Shown here piece after piece: positions 24,987 through 62,731 of a stretch of 64,000 nt of DNA (position 1 is the first letter of the stretch; the number at the start of each line of letters is the position of its first letter). A program made the position numbers and the translations under genes. The DNA is from Sphingobacteriales bacterium. Its GTDB lineage: Bacteria; Bacteroidota; Bacteroidia; Chitinophagales; CAIOSU01. The stretch spans positions 552,814 to 616,813 of the forward strand of contig JAIXUD010000009.1 of assembly GCA_027483645.1 (NCBI GenBank). The letters run 5' to 3'. Below the pieces are notes generated by a model that had not been told where the DNA came from, did not search any database, and worked only from the letters and a program-made list of their open reading frames with translations.

Positions 24987-25439
24987 ATGTTTGATAAAAT
25001 ACTCAATATGCAACAACACGAACAACTACTTGATGCCCCTATAAATGATATTAATAACACACCCATATACTCAAGCGTTGCTGTTGGGCTATTTACATTT
25101 TTCTTTACCCCCCTATTTGGGATGATATTGGCCTATCAAAACTTAAAGAGCGTAGGGAAGGCTAACCTGGGATTAAAGGTAGTGCTTGCCAGTATTGTAG
25201 CATTTACAGGATTGATAGTAGTCGAAATCTTTTACATAGAATTACCAGGTGTAGTAAATATGGGAGTAAGTATTGGGTTTGCTTTATTACTAGGCCGCAA
25301 TTTGCACGATACATATATACCTAACCATAAGCAAATGCCCAAAAAGAAAATTTGGGTGCCGCTTGTTATTGGAATTGTACTATTGGTGATAATGGTAGTA
25401 GTGACTATAAACACGTTAGGATTGATAAGTTTATACTAA
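24987..25439 (+). CDS. Small polytopic membrane protein
   Basis: A 150-residue protein with about four hydrophobic helices (about 28-48, 64-84, 90-106 and 124-147) and a polar, Asn/Asp-rich N-terminus. An alternative start at 25008 would remove seven residues. No family or motif is recognised. It begins 12 bases after the cyclase remnant and is followed by the cysteine leader region. The membrane location is confident, the function unknown. Confidence 0.7.
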   Translation: MFDKILNMQQHEQLLDAPINDINNTPIYSSVAVGLFTFFFTPLFGMILAYQNLKSVGKANLGLKVVLASIVAFTGLIVVEIFYIELPGVVNMGVSIGFALLLGRNLHDTYIPNHKQMPKKKIWVPLVIGIVLLVIMVVVTINTLGLISLY

Positions 25440-25543: not shown

Positions 25544-25574
25544 TTGACAATTGGGTTATTATATCATAGTTTAG
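25544..25574 (+). promoter_or_regulatory. Putative promoter of cysteine leader 1
   Basis: A TTG at 25544-25546 and TAGTTTAG at 25567-25574 (seven of eight to TAnnTTTG, ignoring n) are separated by exactly 20 bases, the Bacteroidota spacing. Transcription would begin near 25581, so the leader ORF should start at an internal ATG rather than at 25582. Confidence 0.55.
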
Positions 25575-25581
25575 CAGCCGA

Positions 25582-25686
25582 ATGAAGATAACTACAAATA
25601 TCACCCAAGCAATGAACAACATGATGTGTTGTTGCTGCTGTTGTATCGCCACCGGCGGACAGGGTGCATTGCATTTGTGTAGGTAA
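25582..25686 (+). CDS. Cysteine-run leader peptide 1
   Basis: A short ORF of at most 34 residues. Possible starts are 25582, 25612 and the tandem ATG at 25621/25624. Because the predicted transcription start is about 25581, 25612 or 25621 is more likely. The core reads MMCCCCCC (six consecutive Cys codons at 25627-25644) and the peptide ends Leu-Cys-Arg-stop with a TGT AGG TAA. A run of six cysteines is hard to explain except as a sensor of charged Cys-tRNA. Nine bases after the run, GGCGGACAGGG (25654-25664) can pair with the 5' arm of the downstream terminator. Compare the twin at 29968. Confidence 0.75.
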   Translation: MKITTNITQAMNNMMCCCCCCIATGGQGALHLCR

Positions 25687-25742
25687 TCTTTAACTAGAGA
25701 GAACGTAACCCAACACGAAAGTATATACAAAGCCCTTCCGCC
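25654..25742 (+). promoter_or_regulatory. Candidate antiterminator pairing of attenuator 1
   Basis: GGCGGACAGGG at 25654-25664, inside the leader ORF, can form ten base pairs with CCCTTCCGCC at 25733-25742, with one bulged C. The latter is the 5' arm of the terminator, so the two structures exclude each other. A ribosome stalled on the Cys run would leave this segment free and favour read-through. Confidence 0.6.
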
Positions 25743-25761
25743 AACGCGGAGGGGCTTTTTT
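25731..25761 (+). terminator. Intrinsic terminator / attenuator of leader 1
   Basis: AGCCCTTCCGC pairs with GCGGAGGGGCT (eleven pairs, one G-U) around a CAAC loop, and six T follow. It lies after the Cys leader and 64 bases before the peroxiredoxin ATG, so it can stop transcription of that gene. Confidence 0.85.
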
Positions 25762-25825
25762 CATTTTAACCTTTTACGAAACAATAACAGCTGGCCGCAA
25801 AACGTCAGCAATAAAACACAAAGCA

Positions 25826-26494
25826 ATGAGTACCGTAACCGAAAATCAAATTGTAGCTACCGGAATCCCACGCATTGGCGATGCAGCACCAGACTTTACG
25901 GCCATTACTACCGTGGGCAGCCTAAACTTCTACGATTTCAAAAAAGATAGCTGGGCTATACTTTTCTCTCACCCTGCAGATTTTACGCCGGTATGCACTA
26001 CCGAGCTGGTAGAGTTTGCCCGCGAGAAGGAGTTTTTTGCCGCTCGCAATACCAAATTGATTGGCGTGAGCATTGATAGCATACACAGCCATGTGGCTTG
26101 GGTGCAGAATGTAAGGGAGAAAGTGGGCGTGTACCTTGATTTCCCTATAGTTGCTGACTTGGATACCAAAGTAGCCCAACTGTATGGCATGATTCACCCA
26201 GGTGCTAGCGCAACCGCAACAGTACGTGCCGTATTCATCATCGATCCTAAGAATGTAATCCGCACCTTGATTTACTACCCACTAAACGTGGGCCGAAACT
26301 TGGATGAGATTAAACGTGTTATTGAAGCCCTACAAACGGCAGATAAGCACAGCGTAGCACTACCAGTTAACTGGCGCCCTGGCGATAAAGTAATCGTTCC
26401 AGCGCCAAAAACCTTGGCAGAAGTGGAAGAGCGCGTAGCCAACACCACTTACGAGAAAGTGGACTTTTACTTGAGTAAGAAAGATTTAGTGTAA
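25826..26494 (+). CDS. 1-Cys peroxiredoxin (Prx6-type)
   Basis: A 222-residue AhpC/TSA-family peroxidase. The peroxidatic Cys57 is in SHPADFTPVCTTEL and is the only cysteine in the protein, so this is a 1-Cys enzyme of the Prx6 type that reduces peroxides with an external thiol. The length and the C-terminal extension (LPVNWRPGDKVIVP) agree with Prx6. The ATG at 25826 lies 64 bases after an attenuator terminator whose leader senses cysteine. A possible reason is that thiol status and cysteine supply are regulated together. It is the first gene of a same-strand series leading into cysM. Confidence 0.94.
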   Translation: MSTVTENQIVATGIPRIGDAAPDFTAITTVGSLNFYDFKKDSWAILFSHPADFTPVCTTELVEFAREKEFFAARNTKLIGVSIDSIHSHVAWVQNVREKVGVYLDFPIVADLDTKVAQLYGMIHPGASATATVRAVFIIDPKNVIRTLIYYPLNVGRNLDEIKRVIEALQTADKHSVALPVNWRPGDKVIVPAPKTLAEVEERVANTTYEKVDFYLSKKDLV

Positions 26495-26517: not shown

Positions 26518-26554
26518 AAGATAAGATGGTTTGTCAATAATGCCTACATTGACG

Positions 26555-26602
26555 CGGGATTCGAACTCTGCTGGTTCGAAAGGATACAGAGGTCGAATCC
26601 CG
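26555..26602. repeat. Long hairpin with two tRNA T-arm-like sequences
   Basis: CGGGATTCGA-a-CTCTG pairs with CAGAG-g-TCGAATCCCG (15 pairs, one internal mismatch) around a 16-base loop. Each arm, read on the appropriate strand, resembles the T-arm of a tRNA (TTCGAATCCCG). No complete tRNA can be folded. It lies in the 215-base gap before the cysM-like gene. Confidence 0.6.
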
Positions 26603-26664
26603 ATACCAAATGCTAAAAGAGGAAATAGAAATTAGTAATTAGAAAACGAGGTGTGAAAATACAA

Positions 26665-26703
26665 TTAACCAACCCGTAATTCGCAACTCGTAACCCGTAA
26701 CTA
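26665..26703. repeat. Heptamer array (CGTAACC type)
   Basis: Degenerate CGTAAYC/CGCAACT heptamers end about six bases before the cysM-like ATG at 26710. It belongs to a set of similar arrays seen in at least ten gaps in this window. Confidence 0.6.
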
Positions 26704-26709
26704 AAAAAC

Positions 26710-27633
26710 ATGCTCATCAAAGAATCCAAATCGAGCTTACTGCATAGGGTTTTTTCATTGGAACCGTTTATCGGGAACACCCCCCTGTTCCCGATAAACG
26801 GAACTTTTACCAAGCCCGGCGTAACCATTTATGCTAAGCTGGAATGGTACCAATTGGGCAACAGCGTAAAGGCACGCCCTGCCTTCAACATCATTAAAGA
26901 AGCGGTAGCTTCTGGCAAACTGCACGAAGGCATACAACTGCTAGATGCCAGCAGCGGCAACACTGGCGTAGCCTACGGTGCCATTGGTGCAGCGCTGGGA
27001 ATTCCGGTAACGCTTATATTACCAGAGAACGCCAGCCAACAAAAGAAAAACGCCCTAAAAGCACACGGCGTAAACATTATAGAAACCAGCCGCTTTGAAG
27101 GTACCGACGGTGCCCAAGAATATGCGCTTGAACTATACAACGCCAACCCAGAGCAGTACTACTATGCCGACCAGTATAGCAACGAAAATAACTGGAAGGC
27201 ACACTATTACAGCACTGGCCGCGAAATATTTGACCAGACCCGAAGCAAGATAACCCACTTTGTGGCTGGCCTTGGCACTACGGGCACCTTTACCGGCACC
27301 GCCCGCCGATTGAAAGAAAACGACCCGCGTATCGAGGTAATCAGCTTACAACCCGACTTTGCCATGCATGGGCTGGAAGGTTGGAAGCACCTAGAGACCG
27401 CCAAAGTACCGAAGATATATGATGCCACGCTCGCCGACCGCAACTTGGAAGTAAGCACTGAAGAAGCTTATGCGCTGATAAAGGAAGTAGCTAAAAAAGA
27501 TGGCCTGTTATTAAGCCCATCATCAGCAGCTAACTTGGTGGGCGCCATAAAGGTGGCTAACGAAATTGATAAAGGTGTAGTGGTAACGGTGTTTCCAGAT
27601 CATGGAAGCAACTATCCGGAGCTGGCAATTTAG
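26710..27633 (+). CDS. cysM: Cysteine synthase, CysM-like (PLP, beta-substituting)
   Basis: A 307-residue fold-type II PLP enzyme. The PLP lysine is Lys54 (GNSVKARPAFNII), the substrate loop is DASSGNTGVAYGA (Ser80-Gly85), and the phosphate-binding loop is FVAGLGTTGTFTGT. The N-terminal IGNTPL motif is present. In the actinobacterial pathway CysM takes sulfide from the CysO thiocarboxylate instead of free sulfide. The genes for a JAMM peptidase, CysO and a MoeZ-like enzyme follow here, so this one probably does the same. Whether it uses O-acetylserine or O-phosphoserine cannot be decided; the region after LQPDF differs from both model enzymes. Codons 19-31 contain a perfect 15-base inverted repeat. 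Confidence 0.92.
   Translation: MLIKESKSSLLHRVFSLEPFIGNTPLFPINGTFTKPGVTIYAKLEWYQLGNSVKARPAFNIIKEAVASGKLHEGIQLLDASSGNTGVAYGAIGAALGIPVTLILPENASQQKKNALKAHGVNIIETSRFEGTDGAQEYALELYNANPEQYYYADQYSNENNWKAHYYSTGREIFDQTRSKITHFVAGLGTTGTFTGTARRLKENDPRIEVISLQPDFAMHGLEGWKHLETAKVPKIYDATLADRNLEVSTEEAYALIKEVAKKDGLLLSPSSAANLVGAIKVANEIDKGVVVTVFPDHGSNYPELAI
26764..26801 (+). promoter_or_regulatory. Perfect 15-bp inverted repeat inside the cysM coding region
   Basis: CCGTTTATCGGGAAC and GTTCCCGATAAACGG flank an eight-base ACCCCCCT loop. It covers codons 19 to 31, including the IGNTPL motif. In mRNA this would be a very stable stem-loop early in the message. It may be regulatory or a coincidence of codon use. Confidence 0.55.
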
Positions 27634-27729: not shown

Positions 27730-28191
27730 ATGGCAGATATAATAATAACAGAAAACGCTCGCAAAGTAATCCTGAAAGATGCGGAGCAAACGTACCCGCA
27801 TGAATGCTGTGGTTTTTTCTACGGAACGGATGAAGATACACGCACCGTACTAGAAGCGATACCGGTAGAGAATACCAAAGAGGAAAACCGGGAACGGAGA
27901 TTTGAGATTTCAGCTAAGGATTATCTGAAGGCAGAGCAATATGCGGATGAAAAAGGTCTGACTTTGCTAGGGGTATACCACAGCCACCCTGAGCACCCAG
28001 CCATCCCGAGTGAGCACGATTTGAGGCAGGCGTTGCCATACTTTTCGTACATCATTGTATCGGTAAAGAAAGCCAAAACCGTGAACGTACTCTCTTGGAA
28101 ACTGAACGACCAAGGCCGTTTTGCAGAAGAGAAAGTAATCAACCAAAACAACCCGTTTGATGTGGATGTATTCTTATCAAGCTATCAATAA
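27730..28191 (+). CDS. JAMM/MPN metallopeptidase, Mec-like (CysO-cysteine peptidase type)
   Basis: A 153-residue JAB1/MPN/Mov34 zinc peptidase. The JAMM motif is complete: Glu25 (YPHECCGFF), His84 and His86 (VYHSHPEHPAIPSEHD), Ser94 and Asp97. In Mycobacterium the homologue Mec+ releases cysteine from the C-terminus of CysO-Cys. In Pseudomonas quinolobactin synthesis QbsD trims extra residues after the Gly-Gly of its carrier. The next gene here encodes a CysO-like carrier ending in Gly-Gly-Cys-Cys, so this peptidase may do both. It is 96 bases after cysM on the same strand, across a heptamer array and a short EcoRI-site-rich AT stretch. Confidence 0.92.
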   Translation: MADIIITENARKVILKDAEQTYPHECCGFFYGTDEDTRTVLEAIPVENTKEENRERRFEISAKDYLKAEQYADEKGLTLLGVYHSHPEHPAIPSEHDLRQALPYFSYIIVSVKKAKTVNVLSWKLNDQGRFAEEKVINQNNPFDVDVFLSSYQ

Positions 28192-28249: not shown

Positions 28250-28528
28250 ATGGCAAAAATTATTATCCCAACCCCGCTAAGGAAGTTTACAGATAACCAG
28301 AGCAGCTTTCAGGCAACTGCAAATAACGTGGGTGCGGCGTTGAGCGAATTGACCGAAACCTATCCGGGCATTAAAGGCCACCTATACGATGACCAAGGCC
28401 AAGTGCGGCAGTTCATCAAAGTATTCGTGGGCGAAGACGATATCAAATCGCTTGACAACGAAAATACGGCAGTAGAAACAGCAACGGTAATCAGCATAGT
28501 ACCAGCGATAGCTGGCGGTTGTTGTTAG
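28250..28528 (+). CDS. cysO: CysO/ThiS/MoaD-like sulfur carrier protein with C-terminal GG-CC
   Basis: A 92-residue ubiquitin-fold sulfur carrier. It matches mycobacterial CysO in length and in segments such as IPTPLRKFT, IKVFVGEDDIKSLDNENTAV and VISIVPAIAGG. The di-glycine (residues 89-90), normally the last two residues, is followed by Cys91-Cys92 and the stop. The tail must be removed before the glycine can be adenylated and converted to a thiocarboxylate, presumably by the JAMM peptidase encoded just upstream. This is like QbsE, whose tail follows GG. The adenylating MoeZ-like enzyme is the next gene. The tail is read directly from codons GGC GGT TGT TGT TAG. Confidence 0.93.
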   Translation: MAKIIIPTPLRKFTDNQSSFQATANNVGAALSELTETYPGIKGHLYDDQGQVRQFIKVFVGEDDIKSLDNENTAVETATVISIVPAIAGGCC

Positions 28529-28680: not shown

Positions 28681-28715
28681 CAACCCATAACCCGTAACTC
28701 GAAACTCGTAACAAA
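28681..28715. repeat. CGTAACT heptamer array before moeZ-like gene
   Basis: CCCATAA, CCCGTAA, CTCGAAA and CTCGTAA repeat with a seven-base period up to the ATG at 28716. Confidence 0.6.
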
Positions 28716-29870
28716 ATGTCTTTCAGTAAACAAGAATTAGAACGCTATAGCCGCCACATCATTATACCCGAATTTGGTATCGAGGGACAGCGAAAGCTTA
28801 AAGAGGCCAAAGTATTGGTGGTGGGCACTGGCGGCTTGGGCAGCCCGGTATTGTTGTACCTTGCCGCAGCCGGCGTGGGCACAATCGGTATTGTCGATTT
28901 TGATAAAGTGGACGATAGCAACTTGCAGCGCCAAGTATTATTTGGCGTTGGCGATGTGGGCCGCCCGAAGGTGGATGCCGCCGCCGACCGCCTACGTGCG
29001 CTGAACCCGTACATCAACATAGTAACCTACAACGTACAACTGCACAGCAGCAACGCACTGGATATTTTGAAAGACTACGACCTAGTTGCCGATGGCACGG
29101 ATAACTTCCCTACCCGCTACTTGGTAAACGACGCTGCCGTAATATTGGGAAAAACCAATGTGTACGCCTCTATCTTCCGTTTCGATGGGCAGGTAACGGT
29201 TTTCAATTATAAACATGCCGACGGTACGTTTGGCCCGCATTACCGCGACCTGTACCCTACCCCTCCGCCTCCGGGCCTAGTGCCAAGCTGTGCTGAAGGT
29301 GGCGTGTTGGGTGTGTTGCCGGGTATTATCGGCAGCTTGCAAGCCAGCGAAGTAATTAAAGTAATTACAGGCATTGGCGAGCCATTGGTGGGTAAACTGT
29401 ACTTGTTTGATGCGTTGAGCTTTGAGAGCCGCACGTTGAAATTCAAGAAAGACCCTGCCACGCCAAAGGTTGAAAAGCTGATTGATTATGAGCAATTTTG
29501 TGGTATTGTGAAACCGGCCGCCGAGGCTAAAAAAGACAATACCGTGAAAGAGATAAGCGTAAAAGAACTGAAAGCCCTGCAAGACCAAGGAGCTGACTTC
29601 CAACTGATTGACGTGCGCGAAGAGTACGAATATGAGATTGCGAACTTAGCCAACCTAGGTGCCGAACTGATACCACTAGCTACCGTACCTGCCAATGCCG
29701 AGCGCATTGCGAAGGACAAGCAAGTTATCATCCACTGCCGCAGCGGTGCCCGCAGTGGCAATGCCGTTCGCCTGCTAGAGAGTCAGTTTGGTTATGATAA
29801 CTTGTATAATTTGAAAGGCGGTATTTTGGCCTATGCTGATGAAGTAGATACCTCTTTGGCGAAGTACTAA
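28716..29870 (+). CDS. moeZ: MoeZ-like adenylyltransferase/sulfurtransferase (ThiF-MoeB fold plus rhodanese)
   Basis: A 384-residue two-domain enzyme. The N-terminal E1-like domain has the ATP loop VVGTGGLGSPVLLYLAAAG, DGTDNFPTRYLVND, and the active Cys192 in PPPPGLVPSCAEGGVLG. The C-terminal rhodanese domain (about 275-384) has LIDVREEYEYEIA and the persulfide Cys341 in VIIHCRSGARSGNAV. The zinc CxxC pairs of classical MoeB are not visible. In actinobacteria MoeZ adenylates the CysO C-terminus and delivers sulfur from a rhodanese persulfide to form the thiocarboxylate. Its position right after the CysO-like gene supports the same job here, although other carriers (MoaD, ThiS) could also be served. 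Confidence 0.93.
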   Translation: MSFSKQELERYSRHIIIPEFGIEGQRKLKEAKVLVVGTGGLGSPVLLYLAAAGVGTIGIVDFDKVDDSNLQRQVLFGVGDVGRPKVDAAADRLRALNPYINIVTYNVQLHSSNALDILKDYDLVADGTDNFPTRYLVNDAAVILGKTNVYASIFRFDGQVTVFNYKHADGTFGPHYRDLYPTPPPPGLVPSCAEGGVLGVLPGIIGSLQASEVIKVITGIGEPLVGKLYLFDALSFESRTLKFKKDPATPKVEKLIDYEQFCGIVKPAAEAKKDNTVKEISVKELKALQDQGADFQLIDVREEYEYEIANLANLGAELIPLATVPANAERIAKDKQVIIHCRSGARSGNAVRLLESQFGYDNLYNLKGGILAYADEVDTSLAKY

Positions 29871-29886: not shown

Positions 29887-29969
29887 GAGTATCAAGTATC
29901 AAGACTTAAATTCAACACATTACTCGTAACCCGTAACCCGTAACTCGAAACCAATAACCAATAACCAAT
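29887..29969. repeat. TATCAAG and CGTAACC/CAATAAC heptamer arrays
   Basis: TATCAAG-TATCAAG at about 29890-29903 is followed after a short gap by CGTAACC units and then CAATAAC units (about 29932-29969), all with a seven-base period. The last unit provides the ATG at 29968 that could open leader peptide 2. Confidence 0.65.
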
Positions 29970-30045
29970 GATCCAGTACACCCAAAATATGATGTGTTGT
30001 TGTTGCTGCCAACCGCGGCAACCGGATAGCTATTGGTGTAGGTAA
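29968..30045 (+). CDS. Cysteine-run leader peptide 2
   Basis: A short ORF of 25 residues from 29968, or 18 from the tandem ATG at 29989/29992. The latter is favoured because 29968 arises from a heptamer repeat. The core is MMCCCCC (five Cys codons at 29995-30009) and the end is Trp-Cys-Arg-stop with TGT AGG TAA, the same ending as leader 1. The bases before the tandem ATG (CACCCAA) are also shared. Seven bases after the run, GGCAACCGG (30017-30025) can pair with the 5' region of the following terminator. No -7 box is seen immediately upstream, so it may be read from the preceding operon. Confidence 0.75.
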   Translation: MIQYTQNMMCCCCCQPRQPDSYWCR

Positions 30046-30082
30046 TAATATACTCCTCCATATGTGAACCCGGCCGGCTGCC
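30017..30082 (+). promoter_or_regulatory. Candidate antiterminator pairing of attenuator 2
   Basis: GGCAACCGG (30017-30025) in the leader can pair with CCGGCTGCC (30074-30082) in eight of nine positions. It overlaps the inner part of the terminator's 5' arm. The pairing is weaker than in attenuator 1, but its distance from the Cys run is nearly the same. Confidence 0.45.
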
Positions 30083-30105
30083 ATGCCCGTGCCGGGTTCT
30101 TTTTT
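30066..30105 (+). terminator. Intrinsic terminator / attenuator of leader 2
   Basis: GAACCCGGC pairs perfectly with GCCGGGTTC (nine pairs), enclosing a partly structured 16-base interior, and six T follow. It ends 60 bases before the sulfhydrylase ATG, nearly the same distance as terminator 1 to its gene. Confidence 0.85.
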
Positions 30106-30153: not shown

Positions 30154-31491
<1,338 letters not shown>

Positions 31492-62525: not shown

Positions 62526-62590
62526 AGGTCTACCATAGGTAGGTAAGCATTACCAAATGCGACAGTGCCGCTCGCGATCGGCGCTGTCAG

Positions 62591-62668
62591 ACTCCCTCCG
62601 CCGGTATTACCCGGATCAGGTTCATTGGGTGTAATCTCAGCCCCCGTATTGGCGGGGGCACCCCAGTC
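62591..62668 (-). ncRNA. TPP (THI-box) riboswitch
   Basis: The minus strand reads ACTGGGGTGCC, then a Cys-like hairpin CCCCCGCC/GGGGG, CTGAGATTACACCC, CCTGATCCGGGTAATACC and GGCGGAGGGAGT. These are the conserved parts of the thiamine pyrophosphate aptamer in the correct order and distance. It lies about 100 bases upstream of the TonB receptor ATG on the same strand. Confidence 0.93.
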
Positions 62669-62731
62669 ATTAACAAAGGCAAAGGTAGGGATAATGTGCA
62701 AATGTGCAAATGGGTTGATGTGCGAATGGCA

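Follow-up and report, generated by a model that had tools for sequence, protein, structure and literature searches.

Sequence organization of the leader upstream of the prx-cysM genes

Does a tiny ORF with a run of cysteine codons, followed by a terminator and a series of sulfur genes, act as a switch that senses the supply of cysteine? This question is raised by a locus in a Sphingobacteriales bacterium (contig JAIXUD010000009.1), which we analyzed within a stretch of 64,000 nucleotides (hereafter the window). An earlier note, made from these letters only, had proposed a ribosome-mediated attenuator. For comparison, enterobacterial trp and his attenuators have a leader peptide rich in the codon of the regulating amino acid, alternative 1:2, 2:3, and 3:4 pairings, and a terminator before the first gene.

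Leader ORF 1 (25582-25686, forward strand) is predicted to be translated into a peptide of 34 amino acid residues, MKITTNITQAMNNMMCCCCCCIATGGQGALHLCR, which matched no NCBIfam family. Six Cys codons in a row (TGTTGTTGCTGCTGTTGT, 25627-25644), noticed previously, form the proposed stall site. All the elements that follow are on the same strand. A short 1:2 hairpin (CGCC-ACC-GGCG, 25647-25657) was found in the minimum free energy (MFE) fold of 25645-25765. Segment 2, the 5' strand of the predicted antiterminator (GGCGGACAGGGT, 25654-25665), starts approximately 10 nucleotides past the Cys run. Intrinsic terminator 1 (AAAGCCCTTCCGCCAACGCGGAGGGGCTTTTTT from 25729; 25729-25762) is a hairpin of -23.4 kcal/mol (25729-25758) composed of arm 3 (25729-25741) and arm 4 (25746-25758), with a T6 run after it, in agreement with the strong T-tailed terminator of the earlier note. 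The ATG of prx at 25826 lies 64 bases past the terminator, the distance given before.

Complementarity of the segment after the Cys run to the 5' arm of the terminator had also been claimed, and it was borne out by folding. When 25645-25742 was folded, with arm 4 not yet transcribed, the MFE structure was the 2:3 antiterminator (-29.6 kcal/mol, z -3.2), in which 25654-25665 forms 11 pairs with 25732-25742, with one bulge. With arm 4 included (25645-25765), the short 1:2 hairpin and the terminator were predicted instead (-40.9 kcal/mol, z -3.6). The stop codon of leader ORF 1 is 39 nucleotides past the Cys run; a ribosome waiting there would therefore cover segment 2 only at its end.

The promoter previously placed just before the ORF was retained in part. 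A TTG-N20-TAGTTTAG site is present at 25544-25574 (forward strand) and lies in a block conserved across four genomes, but the match is not exact: the site departs at one position from the Bacteroidota -33/-7 consensus TAnnTTTG, and sites that depart this far are at chance level in the window (34 versus 29.8 expected). If this promoter-like site is real, transcription would start at approximately 25578-25581, and the mRNA of leader 1 would be almost leaderless.

Genes downstream and a second leader before metY

Six genes follow on the forward strand: prx, encoding a peroxiredoxin (25826-26494; NCBIfam PRK13189, 278 bits, cut-off 211); a gene for a cysM-like cysteine synthase (26710-27633; TIGR01138, E 1e-90, below the curated cut-off); a JAMM/desampylase-like protease gene (27730-28191; NF041370, E 2e-20, below cut-off); a gene for a ubiquitin-like sulfur carrier (SAMP1/MoaD-like; 28250-28528; NF041918, E 3e-12, below cut-off); a gene for a MoeZ-like adenylyltransferase/rhodanese (28716-29870; MoeB/MoeZ models, E ~1e-149 or better, below cut-offs); and metY, for an O-acetylhomoserine/O-acetylserine sulfhydrylase (30166-31491; TIGR01326, 692 bits, cut-off 495). 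The names are given by similarity because most model scores are below curated cut-offs. The cysM-like, carrier, JAMM, MoeZ-like, and metY genes fit the synthesis of the amino acid that the leaders would sense, and the first four presumably form a set resembling the actinobacterial CysO/Mec/CysM cysteine pathway. The carrier ends in GGCC, with two Cys residues beyond the usual terminal GG, and the adjacent JAMM protease could trim it. In the genome's own cysS and PAPS-reductase-family gene, no Cys leader was found upstream, and a search of this genome for an NIR_SIR-type sulfite reductase found none.

A second Cys leader with a terminator, overlooked by the earlier note, lies before metY (29968-30105, forward strand). 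Leader ORF 2 (29968-30045) encodes 25 amino acid residues, MIQYTQNMMCCCCCQPRQPDSYWCR, with five Cys codons in a row (29995-30009), and is followed by intrinsic terminator 2 (GAACCCGGCCGGC...GCCGGGTTC-T6, 30066-30105, -23.9 kcal/mol). In an alignment with relatives, the Cys run shows synonymous exchange of TGT and TGC and differs in length by a whole codon, and terminator 2 shows a compensatory change from G-C to A-U. The antiterminator of leader 2 was not distinguished from shuffled sequences (p 0.55), in a test that is weakened by its self-complementary, GC-rich arm.

The 4.27-Mb genome has only five distinct places with a run of five TGY codons, and leaders 1 and 2, located 4.4 kb apart in the sulfur cluster, account for two of them. 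The pattern ATG(TGY)4 occurred 35 times in 61 genomes versus 3 times for the reversed pattern. The arrangement of the Cys run and the terminator in leader 1 is not due to chance.

Other elements were observed in the window. Repeats of the AACCCGTAAC type, located between genes of the sulfur cluster at 26671-26701, 28682-28712, and 29921-29951, gave 11 matches in the whole window versus 0.1 expected. The gap between prx and cysM holds a long imperfect inverted repeat (CGGGATTCGAACTCTG...CAGAGGTCGAATCCCG, 26550-26605) similar to a tRNA T arm, and no tRNA was called there. A TPP riboswitch (RF00059) scored over the gathering score at 62576-62675 on the reverse strand, and no covariance-model match to the SAM-I riboswitch (RF00162) was found in the window.

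Conservation in the genus and in other families

Within the genus, both leaders are kept in two genomes (G002 and G004), whereas G003 has leader 1 and G001 has an altered form of leader 2. The peptide of leader 1 is kept as MNTTTNMTQAMNNMMCCCCCCFAAGGQGALYLCR and similar sequences in G002, G003, and G004. A terminator retained after loss of the Cys run, the pattern that would have spoken against attenuation, was sought and did not appear: the six Cys codons are kept in each of the four terminator-bearing genomes. In their alignment, no change is seen in the Cys run, segment 2, or arm 3, and little is conserved between them, whereas arm 4 of terminator 1 changes from U-A to U-G with pairing kept, and the loop varies. 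An invariant arm 3 opposite pairing-preserving changes in arm 4 is expected if arm 3 pairs with two partners, although from four close genomes this pattern would by itself be a weak indication.

In G003, prx is absent, yet the leader and terminator are retained directly before cysM, which suggests that cysM is the relevant target. In other families, a Cys leader with a terminator was found before cysM (G033), prx (G038 and G050), metY (G020, G025, G028, G038, and G046), and sulfite reductase (G037), so that Cys-run ORFs with terminators do occur upstream of relatives of both cysM and prx, where the earlier note had suggested looking. The prx relatives from other families (L010-L015) had no Cys leader, and the link to prx is thus not general. 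The cysM-like gene is probably the main target of leader 1. Across the recurrent leader-terminator units, the N-termini of the leader peptides are unrelated and the Cys run alone is common. At one Saprospiraceae locus (L082, reverse strand), two tandem Cys-run leaders precede a single sulfite reductase gene, with the Cys runs at reverse-complement positions ~1682 and ~1932 and a strong terminator after the second.

Complementarity between segment 2 and the terminator across leaders

The stretch 8 to 36 nucleotides past the Cys run was compared with the 5' arm of the terminator in 25 terminator-bearing leaders, using dinucleotide shuffles of the spacer as the null and the 3' arm (arm 4) as a matched control. 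The combined Fisher p was 3.6e-13, compared with 0.08 for the control. The values were 3.9e-12 versus 0.045 in 20 leaders after removal of near-duplicates and 1e-9 versus 0.038 without two of the strongest leaders (leader 1 and L132). Leader 1 alone gave p 0.005 (control 0.43), and several leaders other than leader 2 were also individually weak. Shuffling the whole spacer dilutes its GC-rich near region and may inflate the result for the 5' arm, but the control was handled identically. A whole-spacer version of the test was weaker and still significant, and the spacer past 36 nucleotides had no excess complementarity to the 5' arm.

Segment 2 starts 9 to 16 nucleotides past the Cys run in most leaders, and the stop codon is 27 to 45 nucleotides past it in 16 terminator-type leaders, so that a terminating ribosome would sit over or next to segment 2. 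By the footprint of the ribosome, a stall in the Cys run would leave segment 2 free, and a ribosome finishing the ORF would cover it.

Breadth of Cys-run leaders

One genome per species, about 85,000 genomes, was scanned with the pattern ATGATG(TGY)5, which gave 76 matches; 50 of these were short ORFs outside long ORFs. At least 35 of the 50 precede cysteine or sulfur genes. The 50 loci are not all independent, because two (L083 and L125) come from genus mates and several Saprospiraceae are related. The genes downstream were metY (13), sulfite reductase (12), cysS (3), cysK (2), cysH (2), prx (2), cysM (1), and a siroheme-type methylase (1), and also GST-like genes in Lachnospiraceae (5), OsmC (2), DUF4395 (1), and an ABC permease (1); for the remaining five, the downstream gene was cut off or not named. 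The other 26 matches lie within long ORFs or overlap them; cysteine or sulfur genes follow only three of these, and in all three the long ORF is antisense to the leader. A strict scan of the phylum with ATGATG(TGY)4 found 10 of 395 genomes, which indicates that a strict pattern gives too low a count for leaders with fewer Cys codons.

Two groups of leaders precede genes of other kinds. In Lachnospiraceae (L067, L092, L094, L096, and L120), Cys-run leaders (...MMMCCCCCMMRRFIQS...) are located before a GST-like gene. In Chlorobiaceae (L077, at 2514; L113, at 277), a Cys-run leader with a terminator precedes a DUF4395 protein, and a sulfur-related function of this family is possible.

Cys leaders adjacent to SAM-I aptamers

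Terminator-less Cys leaders occur directly after a SAM-I aptamer (Rfam) before metY at 11 loci (L069, L080, L086, L088, L097, L100, L101, L104, L111, L112, and L137) and before OsmC at two (L071 and L134); at L142 the aptamer lies further upstream. At all loci except L142, the AUG of the leader is 3 to 15 nucleotides past the aptamer, and in leaders of this type the Cys run ends 0 to 15 nucleotides before the stop codon. By contrast, nine terminator-type metY leaders (L048, L083, L121, L125, L148, L154, L156, L157, and L158) had no SAM aptamer by Rfam. The coupled loci were mostly found through their Cys run. Among 30 SAM-I loci of the order chosen regardless of Cys, a Cys leader was present only at the two OsmC loci; two metY loci and the metH-, metX-, and metB-type loci (gene names read from sequence, with no model search) had none. 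A Rho-dependent form was considered for the terminator-less leaders and judged unsupported: the excess of C over G downstream was similar in both classes (258 versus 186, and 243 versus 207 in the terminator class), with no clear difference.

These arrangements suggest a second form of Cys leader, located upstream of metY or OsmC, in which the Cys run lies at the stop codon or close to it, there is no terminator, and the AUG stands 3 to 15 nucleotides past a SAM-I aptamer. This form may take two inputs: SAM would determine translation of the leader, and Cys-tRNA would determine stalling of the ribosome. The broader proposal is a portable, phylum-wide Cys-sensing device, to which the window leaders would belong, with two forms, one with a stop codon 27 to 45 nucleotides past the run and an antiterminator and terminator, and the other coupled to SAM-I and two-input; to us the arguments for and against this proposal appear evenly balanced.

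Proposed mechanism and alternative explanations

Both leaders in the window very probably work as ribosome-mediated transcription attenuators responding to charged Cys-tRNA. Transcription would start upstream, and the leader would be translated by a ribosome. When Cys-tRNA is ample, the ribosome would pass the Cys run and cover segment 2 while moving on to the stop codon; with segment 2 occupied, arm 3 would pair with arm 4, and the terminator would stop transcription. When Cys-tRNA is scarce, the ribosome would stall in the Cys run, the free segment 2 would pair with arm 3, no terminator would form, and prx-cysM and the following genes would be transcribed. metY would be switched separately, by leader 2, in the same manner. 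The earlier note's reading of leader 1 thus gains from the second leader, from the sulfur-gene leaders in many families, and from the recurrent antiterminator complementarity. Anatomy and comparison support it strongly for leader 1 and its class, and from them we infer the regulatory behavior, that is, ribosome stalling, the switch, and the size of its effect.

The Cys leader could instead act on how the downstream gene is translated, either through coupling or by making the start of that gene accessible, with the hairpin incidental. Mycobacterial Cys uORFs without terminators (PMC1262725; PMC4633059) and the terminator-less leaders before metY in relatives are precedents for such control, but in the window the leader stop is ~140 nucleotides (leader 1) or ~120 nucleotides (leader 2) from the gene, and a T-tailed terminator lies in the interval. 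The complementarity of segment 2 to the terminator arm across 25 leaders and the retention of leader and terminator in G003 despite its changed target gene also argue against translational control, which we consider improbable.

A riboswitch or protein-binding element that senses cysteine, O-acetylserine, or sulfide directly, with the Cys ORF secondary, would be in keeping with the metabolite-sensing leaders that are common before sulfur genes and with the SAM-I aptamers before some metY genes. However, no Rfam family was over the gathering score in leader 1, sub-threshold matches included, and the conserved positions fall in the ORF, segment 2, and arm 3, with few of them in between; such an element is highly unlikely. 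Equally hard to credit is that terminator 1 ends the same-strand upstream gene (24987-25439) and that the ORF is fortuitous or encodes a small metal- or redox-binding protein: that gene does end at 25439 and Cys runs can bind metal, but the leader-terminator unit recurs ahead of sulfur genes, where only the Cys run is shared among unrelated N-termini, and complementarity of the 3' part of the ORF to the terminator would not be expected.

Relation to known systems and significance

The window element shares with the trp and his attenuators a codon-rich leader, the 1:2/2:3/3:4 alternatives, and a terminator: a conserved ORF rich in Cys codons, terminators of -23.4 and -23.9 kcal/mol with T6, and, in leader 1, an antiterminator were all found. 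It differs in amino acid and phylum, in its weak 1:2 hairpin, and in the possibility that leader 1 is almost leaderless. The uORFC-8-2 motif upstream of cysS in Rhodobacterales, for which attenuation at low Cys-tRNA was proposed, likewise consists of a short ORF with tandem Cys codons and then an intrinsic terminator (PMC8632094). That motif has two Cys codons, at positions 14-15, and belongs to Alphaproteobacteria (PMC8632094), and its target is cysS, whereas the window leaders precede prx-cysM and metY; their sequence relation was judged by the Rfam non-match alone. Leader ORFs with Cys runs also precede the cys operons of Mycobacterium and P. acnes and cbs of B. longum, and thus, as in the window, cysteine or sulfur genes; there, however, the run is near the stop codon, no terminator hairpin is conserved, and Rho-dependent or translational control was suggested (PMC1262725; PMC4633059). 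In the same phylum, leader-peptide attenuation, the same general mechanism, was noted before amino-acid operons of Flavobacterium psychrophilum, in a report whose main text names no cysteine leader (PMC9723704).

Attenuation by Cys codons is therefore an already known mechanism, and for the Bacteroidota case we found no description in the literature searched; a 2010 comparative survey of attenuators (Lopatovskaya and others) was outside our search, and a prior description is possible. Leader 1 would appear to be one of a set of Cys switches spread through Bacteroidota that switch genes on at cysteine shortage.

To our knowledge, little has been worked out about how Bacteroidota regulate sulfur assimilation. 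If the second form of leader acts as suggested, a SAM riboswitch and a Cys leader before metY, whose enzyme can act in the synthesis of homocysteine as well as of cysteine, would be a natural two-signal gate. If Cys-codon attenuators are widespread, they would supply a direct and testable rule for the conditions under which Bacteroidota make cysteine, and a simple search for Cys leaders would name the members of the regulon.
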